64,000 bases of DNA, taken from contig NZ_FPKV01000004.1 in assembly GCF_900114265.1 (NCBI RefSeq), positions 124,001 through 188,000 on the forward strand, read 5' to 3'. Shown one piece after another: positions 18,363-20,812 of this stretch (position 1 is the first letter of the stretch; each line of letters begins with the position of its first letter). Position numbers and translations under genes: made by a program. This DNA comes from Flaviramulus basaltis (GTDB lineage Bacteria > Bacteroidota > Bacteroidia > Flavobacteriales > Flavobacteriaceae). Under the pieces are notes generated by a model. It had not been told where the DNA came from. It searched no databases and worked only from the letters and a program-made list of their open reading frames with translations.

Positions 18363-19937
18363 TTACTTCGCAATATTTACTGCCCTAGTTTCTCTAATTA
18401 CAGTAACTTTTACTTGACCTGGGTATGTCATATCTGTTTGTACTTTTTGAGAAATACTAAACGATAAATCTGCTGCTTTTTGGTCATCTACTTTTTCACT
18501 TTCAACAATAACCCTAAGCTCTCTACCTGCTTGGATAGCATATGCTTTTTTAACACCAGCAAATCCAAAGGCTATATCTTCTAAATCTTTTAAACGCTGA
18601 ATGTAACTATCTAAAACTTGACGTCGCGCTCCTGGACGTGCCCCTGAAATAGCATCACAAACTTGAATAATTGGTGCTAGTAATGATTTCATTTCTATCT
18701 CATCGTGGTGAGCTCCAATAGCATTACATACTTCATCTTTCTCGCCAAATTTCTCTGCCCATTGCATTCCTAAAATAGCGTGTGGAGTTTCCATATCTGC
18801 CTCTGCATCTGGCACTTTTCCTATATCATGTAGTAACCCTGCTCGCTTAGCAAGTTTAGGATTTAATCCTAATTCGGCAGCCATCACACCACAAAGCTTA
18901 GCGACTTCACGCGAGTGTTGTAATAAGTTTTGCCCGTAAGAAGAACGGTATTTCATTCTACCAACCATTTTTATAAGTTCTGGGTGTAGATTATGAATTC
19001 CTAAATCGATAACTGTACGTTTACCAACTTCTATAATTTCTTGTTCAATTTGTTTTTGAGTTTTCTTTACAACTTCTTCAATACGTGCTGGATGTATTCT
19101 TCCATCTGTCACCAATTTATGTAATGATAAACGTGCAATTTCTCGTCTTACAGAATCAAAACATGATAAAATGATTGCTTCTGGTGTGTCATCAACAATA
19201 ATTTCTACACCAGTTGCTGCTTCAATGGCTCGTATATTTCGTCCTTCACGACCAATAATACGCCCTTTAACATCATCAGATTCTATGTTAAATACAGAAA
19301 CGCAGTTATCAACCGCTTCTTCTGTACCAATACGCTGTATGGTATTTATAATAATTTTTTTAGCATCTTGCTCTGCAGTTAATTTCGCTTCTTCTAATGA
19401 ACTTTGAATGTATGCCATAGCATCATTTTTTGCTTCACCTTTTAAAGACTCTACTAATTGCTCTTTAGCTTCTTCTGCAGAAAGGCTAGAAATAACCTCT
19501 AATTGTTGTACTTGGTTTTTATGAAGCTTATCAAGTTCTTCTTGTTTCTTTTCATAAACATCAAGCCTATGATTGTAGTCTTTAACTTTATCTTCTAAGC
19601 TTTGATTTAATTTTGTGCTTTTTGAAAGTTCATTTGAGATTTGTGATTCTTTGTCACGCGTACGCTTTTCGGCTTCTGCCATTTTCTTATCTCTTGATAA
19701 AATTACTTTTTCATGTTCTGCTTTTAGCTCTAAAAATTTTTCTTTGGCCTGAAGTATTTTATCTTTTTTAACACTTTCTCCTTCACTATTAGCTTCCTTA
19801 AGTATTAAGTCTGCATTTTTTTTTGCTTCTTTCACAAGTTTTGAAGCGTTATTTTTCTCTAGTGTCTTTGCTATAATAAAGCCTATTATTAGCCCTAAAA
19901 TCACACCACCTACTGCAAATATAATTGAGTTATCCAT
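18363..19937 (-). CDS. rny: Ribonuclease Y
   Basis: Membrane-anchored endoribonuclease that initiates mRNA decay. The 524-residue protein has an N-terminal transmembrane helix ([19 protein letters not shown]), a long coiled coil (about 30-190), a KH RNA-binding domain ([20 protein letters not shown]) and an HD domain with HDIGK. The HD ligands continue in [10 protein letters not shown]. Length and domain order are canonical. It lies downstream of zapA and the 6S RNA candidate on the same strand. Confidence 0.96.
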
Positions 19938-19962
19938 CGTTATTTAGTTGATTATTGTATAT

Positions 19963-20131
19963 AAAAAAGCCTACACCAGTGTAATGTTTTGTATAAACTC
20001 CTTAAAAACAAGTTTAGGGCTAACAAGCTGATCAAGGGTCTGCTCAAGGCAGCATGCTTTTACAACTTAAACTCACCCTTTTTAAAGAATTAACGTTGAG
20101 TTTATCAAAAAAAATAACCAATGTAGGCAGT
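19963..20131 (-). ncRNA. ssrS: 6S RNA candidate (6S-Flavo-like)
   Basis: This ~165-base gap between zapA and rny folds on the reverse strand into one long, interrupted rod, as 6S RNA does. The closing stem is GCCTACA (20128-20122) with TGTAGGC (19975-19969). Next comes ATAAACTC with GAGTTTAT, then a large unpaired region, then GAGTTTA with TAAACTT (one G-U pair), and an apical part with the hairpin CTGC-CTTGA-GCAG. The closing stem runs directly into six T (19968-19963), so it doubles as the terminator. 6S RNA mimics an open promoter and binds RNA polymerase holoenzyme. In E. coli ssrS also follows zapA. No clear promoter of its own was seen; it may be processed from the zapA transcript. Confidence 0.72.
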
Positions 20132-20157
20132 AACTTTTAGTTTATTTTAAAGAACGT

Positions 20158-20451
20158 TTAAGAGATTAAATGTGAATGTAATAAATCATTTAAAGCATTT
20201 AGCTTTTCTTCAACATGCTCACTTACATTCTCTTTATCAATAGTTTTCTGTTCTACTTGAGATGCAAATTGTAAAGCACACATAGCTAATACATCTTGTT
20301 TATCTCGAACAGAATAACTTTGCTCAAACTGTTTAATCATAATTTCAATATTCTTAGCCGCTTTACGTAATCCTTCTTCTTGATTTGCTTCAATTGTTAA
20401 AGGATATACCCTATTCGCTATAGATAGCTTTATTTTAAGCTTTTCTGACAT
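20158..20451 (-). CDS. zapA: Cell division protein ZapA
   Basis: ZapA bundles FtsZ filaments at the division site. The 97-residue protein has the ZapA N-terminal segment (KIKLSIANRVYPLTIEANQEEGLRKAAKNI) followed by the dimerising helix (QDVLAMCALQFASQVEQ). It starts 14 bases after the end of a coiled-coil gene and ends 27 bases before the 6S RNA candidate, so the three are likely one transcript or share a promoter at 20781-20788. Confidence 0.92.
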   Translation of the reverse strand: MSEKLKIKLSIANRVYPLTIEANQEEGLRKAAKNIEIMIKQFEQSYSVRDKQDVLAMCALQFASQVEQKTIDKENVSEHVEEKLNALNDLLHSHLIS

Positions 20452-20465
20452 TGATTTTATGTTGC

Positions 20466-20756
20466 TTAATCAGAAATTTGACCAATACAATAGTCTATAT
20501 CTCTAATTAATGCGTTTATTTTAAGCTTAGTTTCTCTCTTATTGTCGTCACTACCAAGTATTGTATTTGCCATTTTCAAGGCTTGATACTTTTCTTCCCA
20601 ATTAGCAATATGTTGCTTTTGGGTTAAAACTTCTTGCTTTGAAACTTCTAATTCTTCATTCAATTTCAAATTAGTTTGTTTTAAAAGTTCAAGTTTGTGT
20701 AATACTTTACTAATTTTGTTTTCTAAAGAATCTACAATATCTTCAATATTACTCAT
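20466..20756 (-). CDS. Small coiled-coil protein upstream of zapA (ZapB-like?)
   Basis: A 96-residue, highly charged, almost entirely helical protein with heptad-like spacing (LENKISKVLHKLELLKQTNLKLNEEL, seen in sections) and no signal peptide. Its size, coiled-coil nature and tight linkage to zapA suggest a ZapB-like partner of the divisome. There is no sequence motif that proves this, and the identity remains inferred from position. Confidence 0.75.
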   Translation of the reverse strand: MSNIEDIVDSLENKISKVLHKLELLKQTNLKLNEELEVSKQEVLTQKQHIANWEEKYQALKMANTILGSDDNKRETKLKINALIRDIDYCIGQISD

Positions 20757-20780: not shown

Positions 20781-20812
20781 CAAAGTTAACATACCTAGTT
20801 ATAAATTACAAT
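20781..20812 (-). promoter_or_regulatory. Promoter of the coiled-coil / zapA operon
   Basis: TAacTTTG (20788-20781) with ATTG (20812-20809) 20 bases upstream as a -33 element. It lies about 25 bases before the ATG at 20756. Confidence 0.55.

Follow-up and report, generated by a model that had tools for sequence, protein, structure and literature searches.

The 6S RNA gene between zapA and rny in Flaviramulus basaltis and the boxA-like element preceding it

What is encoded between zapA and rny in Flaviramulus basaltis, and under which control could it be transcribed? The first-pass annotation of a 64-kb stretch of this genome (hereafter the window), made from the letters alone, had read the reverse strand of this interval as a long rod and proposed that it is the RNA polymerase-binding 6S RNA, recorded in flavobacteria as 6S-Flavo. 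The present analysis makes us highly confident that positions 19963-20131 (minus strand) are the 6S RNA of F. basaltis, and this RNA is an ordinary member of an already known family. The question then passes to the short sequence between the zapA stop codon and the RNA, which carries a boxA-like element.

Identity, fold and bubble of the RNA

The RNA and its parts lie in the window as follows.

19963..20131, minus strand: 6S RNA gene (6S-Flavo), 169 nt in full length with closing stem and T6; RF01685 match, all major helices covarying in 40 relatives
19995..20101, minus strand: part spanned by the Rfam model RF01685 (bubble and apical rod), 115 bits
20117..20128, minus strand: 5' arm of the closing stem, GCCTACATTGGT, pairing with 19969-19980; 7 of 11 pairs covarying
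19969..19980, minus strand: 3' arm of the closing stem, ACTGGTGTAGGC, followed by T6 at 19963-19968; a likely terminator, with the T-run nearly invariant
20095..20106, plus strand: predicted product RNA 5'-GUUGAGUUUAUC-3', copied from CTCAAC at the bubble edge (RF00013 alignment, CTCAAC invariance)
20009..20016, minus strand: TAAACTTG on the 3' bubble strand, a possible mimic of the sigma-ABfr -7 box TAnnTTTG (4-5 of 6 matches)

When the Rfam covariance models were run over the window, the sole match was RF01685, the 6S-Flavo RNA of Weinberg et al. 2010 (PMC2864571), at 115 bits against a gathering threshold of 85 (E 8.9e-20). The search proposed as a check of the 6S-Flavo assignment thus returned a match above threshold, and the assignment was borne out. 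By the same model the gene is single-copy, with one match in the whole genome of F. basaltis, and it was found in 194 of 199 genera sampled from Flavobacteriaceae and in all 165 near-complete genomes. The general 6S model RF00013, also suggested as a check, gave a divided answer: it aligned end to end (19964-20132 to model positions 1-187) and ranked second by E-value among 4227 Rfam families on the 6S stretch, but with 20 bits (E 0.028) it stayed below its cut-off of 46.4. The same holds for the relatives, where the end-to-end alignments reached 33 bits at best (L038; 29 bits in L024) and the cut-off was attained in none of those tested. RF01693, labelled 6S-Bacteroidales, matched the same stretch over its full length, again below threshold, in L063, L064 and L044; it gave no match to the F. 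basaltis RNA up to E 10 and only three weak matches when run over the phylum. The sub-threshold matches of RF00013 and RF01693 agree in place, strand and full length. Since 6S RNA has been detected in F. psychrophilum (PMC9723704) and, together with product RNAs, by RNA-seq in Bacteroides (PMC7366714), and since RF01685, RF00013 and RF01693 all match here or in relatives, the RNA is to be regarded as already known, and the first-pass annotation was right about it.

For positions 19963-20131 on the reverse strand the folding energy is -48.0 kcal/mol, whereas shuffled sequences average -33.7 (z -3.7; none of 200 shuffles did as well). For comparison, the zapA-rny interval was taken from 62 distinct loci, F. 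basaltis included, and 40 diverse RNAs out of these were aligned and analysed for covariation. Their consensus is a rod with a closing stem, a second stem (TTGATAAACTC/GAGTTTATACAA), an open bubble, unbranched short helices, an apical loop and a T-run at the end. Compensatory changes on both sides occur in 25 of the 41 consensus pairs, and 97.8% of cells are paired; none of 500 shuffles equalled the real alignment on any covariation measure, and sliding the partner register by one column lowered pairing to 43-51%. The closing stem of 11-12 bp, which lies outside RF01685, is itself supported by covariation (double changes in 7 of 11 consensus pairs, 99.5% of cells paired). Fold and covariation thus present the architecture of the 6S class, i.e., a rod with a closing stem, a large asymmetric bubble and an apical stem-loop.

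Most structural details proposed for the locus at the outset agree with this picture. The pairing GCCTACA/TGTAGGC has the right place and strand and belongs to the 12-bp closing stem; ATAAACTC/GAGTTTAT, likewise correctly placed, is stem 2 of the F. basaltis RNA; and the closing stem does run directly into a T-run, T6 following its 3' arm without a gap. Rod and internal bubble were confirmed as well, but the apex, thought to be branched, is an unbranched series of short helices. The supposed poor conservation of the primary sequence was mistaken: within the family the sequence is well conserved, and ACTCAAC and many other columns are invariant. As to termination, a simple terminator scan reported no terminator at the closing stem and T6, and a closing stem that spans the whole RNA would presumably act as one.

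The hexamer CTCAAC at the bubble edge is invariant in all 40 sequences, and the 5' side of the open region of the consensus starts with AAC. In E. coli 6S RNA the product RNA starts at residue U44. The sub-threshold RF00013 alignment sets this residue on the last C of CTCAAC, and for this reason we predict a product RNA of the sequence GUUGAGUUUAUC. On the opposite strand of the bubble, TAAACTTG is suggestive of a mimic of the -7 promoter box, which for sigma-ABfr is TAnnTTTG (PMC7366714, PMC9723704). Matches of 4-5 of 6 positions are present in 38 of 40 sequences, between -12 and -14 relative to the predicted start; the chance of at least 5 of 6 matches in register is about 0.07 in shuffled sequences, which is not significant on one sequence. 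The 3' bubble strand could also form a small hairpin at 20001-20012 (minus strand; CTTG TTTT TAAG, with CCTG..CAGG in L027 and L038), reminiscent of the hairpin that is associated with release in the bubble of other 6S RNAs; its register is ambiguous.

Transcription unit and boxA-like element

The surroundings of the RNA, all on the same strand, include the following features.

18363..19937, minus strand: rny, ribonuclease Y (TIGR03319, 633.6 bits)
20143..20156, minus strand: CGTTCTTTAAAATA, a boxA-like element following the zapA stop and preceding the 6S RNA (best match of the rRNA-leader matrix, p 0.015 here)
20158..20451, minus strand: zapA (PF05164, E 2.8e-19)
20466..20756, minus strand: 96-aa gene, first of the unit (open reading frame kept upstream of zapA in nearly all family loci)
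20781..20812, minus strand: ATTG-N20-TAACTTTG, a predicted sigma-ABfr promoter 32 nt upstream of the first gene (TAnnTTTG box)

The neighbours had been named correctly as zapA and rny, as the matches to PF05164 and TIGR03319 show, and the adjacency of zapA and ssrS in E. coli, cited in support of the 6S assignment, was verified in MG1655. Across Flavobacteriaceae loci 6S-Flavo lies nearly always between these two genes. The 96-aa protein has no Pfam or NCBIfam match and is possibly a small coiled-coil division partner of ZapA; its gene is conserved upstream of zapA also in several other Bacteroidia families.

The TAnnTTTG box is found within 150 nt upstream of the 96-aa gene in all 41 testable loci (32-36 nt before it among the loci listed), and within 150 nt before the 6S RNA in only one of 62 loci. 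Judging from this distribution, the RNA is probably made as the third element of an operon of the 96-aa gene, zapA and 6S, and then processed; the missing box may also be compatible with a weak or non-canonical promoter directly before 6S. From the end of 6S to the start codon of rny (19938-19962, minus strand, in F. basaltis) the box was found in none of the 62 loci, and read-through is one possibility for rny transcription past the 6S terminator. A sigma-70 promoter scan found fewer promoter-like sites here than in shuffled sequences.

To characterize the element before 6S we took the 16S genes of F. basaltis and of 13 of 15 relatives. In nearly all their leaders the promoter box TATATTTGCACCCGC is followed downstream by the expected boxA, GTTCATWRACATATTG or a variant close to it. 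A 15-column matrix was derived from ten rRNA-leader sites only and scanned over about 500 nt around each 6S gene; in 50 of the 62 loci the best match lay between -21 and -27 relative to the start of 6S, 37 with p<0.05, and one further site, at -40, is doubtful. Several loci outside the 50 have one-base-shorter forms, such as CGTTCTTTACA. The element consists of a GTTC[AT]T core and, after it, an A-rich stretch, and it keeps its distance to 6S even under an overrunning zapA reading frame (L025, L031, L044). Genome-wide, the strict pattern GTTCWTWRAMATA is at chance level (11 matches, 14 in the control), so that only position is informative: the matches ahead of stable RNA are those in the 16S leader, in the 16S-23S spacer and before 6S, while most others fall within reading frames. 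The promoter box upstream of the zapA operon, and almost never between zapA and 6S, bears on whether the element would be present in the transcript, 5' of the 6S RNA. The genome encodes NusB-domain and Rho genes, and the element could bind NusB/NusE. Reading CGTTCTTTAAAATA as boxA is, from its sequence and placement, the likely interpretation.

The main survey of boxA and NusB/E targets left non-coding RNAs unconsidered (Baniulyte et al. 2017, PMC5725501). We found no report joining boxA, NusB and 6S RNA in the open-access literature, and a report elsewhere is possible. With this scope, the boxA-like signal before 6S may be new, being otherwise known ahead of rRNA genes.

Homologues in other families and comparison with known systems

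In a sample of 148 genomes of the phylum, RF01685 detected the RNA in 18, 15 of them Flavobacteriaceae. A full-length covariance model, R1, was built from the 40 aligned sequences. Among 197 sampled genomes of the class it matched 25 that belong to other families and lie outside the order, in every case over the whole model. In these families zapA lies beside 18 of 22 loci and rny beside 19 of 22, and none of 15 homologue loci gave an Rfam 6S match at E 0.1. The p-value of the strict rRNA matrix is weak at several distant loci, and the core GTTC[AT]T was used there instead; it occurs within 130 nt upstream in 20 of 22 R1 loci against 1.3 expected (related genomes counted apart), at -23 to -111 from 6S. 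Three loci of one other family (L144, L147, L149) have a 6S-like RNA with the core and neither zapA nor rny in the fetched stretch, which suggests that the boxA-like element belongs to the 6S gene and not to zapA. In several distant families (L134, L135, L151 and others) a short hairpin lies between the core and the 6S start and may be a processing site.

The RNA itself agrees in sequence and structure with 6S-Flavo RF01685, whose full model it matches. That model includes neither the closing stem nor the terminator run, and the boxA-like element is likewise outside it; the F. basaltis gene is here delimited to 169 nt. Bacteroidales-1 RNA (RF01693, for which the label 6S-Bacteroidales RNA was suggested) shows its full-length, sub-threshold likeness in L063, L064 and L044, but differs in leaving the F. 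basaltis RNA unmatched. E. coli ssrS (RF00013) can be aligned with the F. basaltis RNA from one end to the other, through closing stem, bubble and apical rod, though below the cut-off, and zapA is directly upstream in both organisms, whereas fau lies downstream in E. coli and rny in F. basaltis. The 41 bp between zapA and ssrS in MG1655 contain no boxA-like sequence. With the boxA of rRNA operons (PMC5725501) the F. basaltis element shares the GTTC[AT]T core and the A-rich stretch and is matched by the matrix from relatives' rRNA leaders, but it precedes a 6S RNA.

Alternative explanations, proposed mechanism and meaning

Could the interval between zapA and rny hold only a long terminator or an attenuator, and no RNA that acts in trans? 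The closing stem leads into a T-run, and read-through could matter for rny because no TAnnTTTG box precedes its start codon after the 6S end. However, the invariant bubble sequence and the covarying inner helices far exceed a terminator, the counterpart in F. psychrophilum was detected as 6S RNA (PMC9723704), and L144, L147 and L149 match the model and keep the boxA-like core where zapA and rny are absent from the fetched stretch. We consider this explanation very improbable.

Two other explanations leave the 6S RNA in place and concern its upstream sequence; both seem to us unlikely, and to a similar degree. By one of them, CGTTCTTTAAAATA is a promoter or a processing site for 6S, not a boxA. 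An RNase or promoter signal would also account for the near-fixed distance of -21 to -27, but the element is detected by a matrix made from rRNA leaders, where the site lies downstream of the rRNA promoter box; the 16S leader and the 16S-23S spacer, both places where boxA is expected, hold the other matches preceding stable RNA; and the distance varies in other families (-23 to -111), unlike that of a promoter. By the other, a non-canonical promoter within the 3' end of zapA serves 6S alone, and boxA acts on a short transcript. In E. coli, ssrS does have promoters of its own even though zapA lies upstream; yet in 61 of 62 loci the 150 nt ahead of 6S contain no TAnnTTTG box, whereas all 41 of 41 have one before the first gene.

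Returning to the reading of CGTTCTTTAAAATA as boxA on a common transcript, we propose the following course of events. From one sigma-ABfr promoter a transcript would be made of the 96-aa gene, zapA and, as the third element, 6S. The elongating polymerase would pass the boxA-like site, where NusB/NusE could load, and transcription would end at the closing stem and T-run. The 5' end of 6S would then be trimmed to give a mature RNA of about 169 nt, whose rod, mimicking an open promoter, may bind the sigma-ABfr polymerase and block it as growth slows; release would occur once the polymerase uses the edge of the bubble as template for a short product RNA that begins with GUUGAGUUU. For rRNA it was proposed that Nus factors at boxA help the polymerase through an untranslated structured stretch or assist RNA folding (PMC5725501); at the present locus they might similarly help it through the untranslated structured 6S stretch, or help 6S to fold. 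For the F. basaltis RNA, processing, the binding of polymerase and of NusB/E, and the synthesis of a product RNA are thus predictions, while the covarying fold, the membership in the family, the synteny, the boxA-like element and the placement of the promoter box are observed.

The RNA itself is of a known kind, and it is its control by boxA that may be new; what deserves to be followed up is the boxA-like leader, together with the homologues hidden in other Bacteroidia. The full-length model recovers 6S in Bacteroidia families missed by the present Rfam models, which would aid annotation in the phylum. We lean, by a small measure, towards the view that the 6S RNA of Bacteroidia is a target of the Nus complex through boxA on the zapA transcript, sharing this elongation control with 16S and 23S rRNA, and that the same family exists in many Bacteroidia where Rfam sees no 6S. 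With a boxA before 6S, a growth-phase regulator of RNA polymerase would come under the elongation machinery of rRNA and, if this is true, the polymerase inhibitor 6S and ribosomal RNA synthesis would stand under one elongation control.
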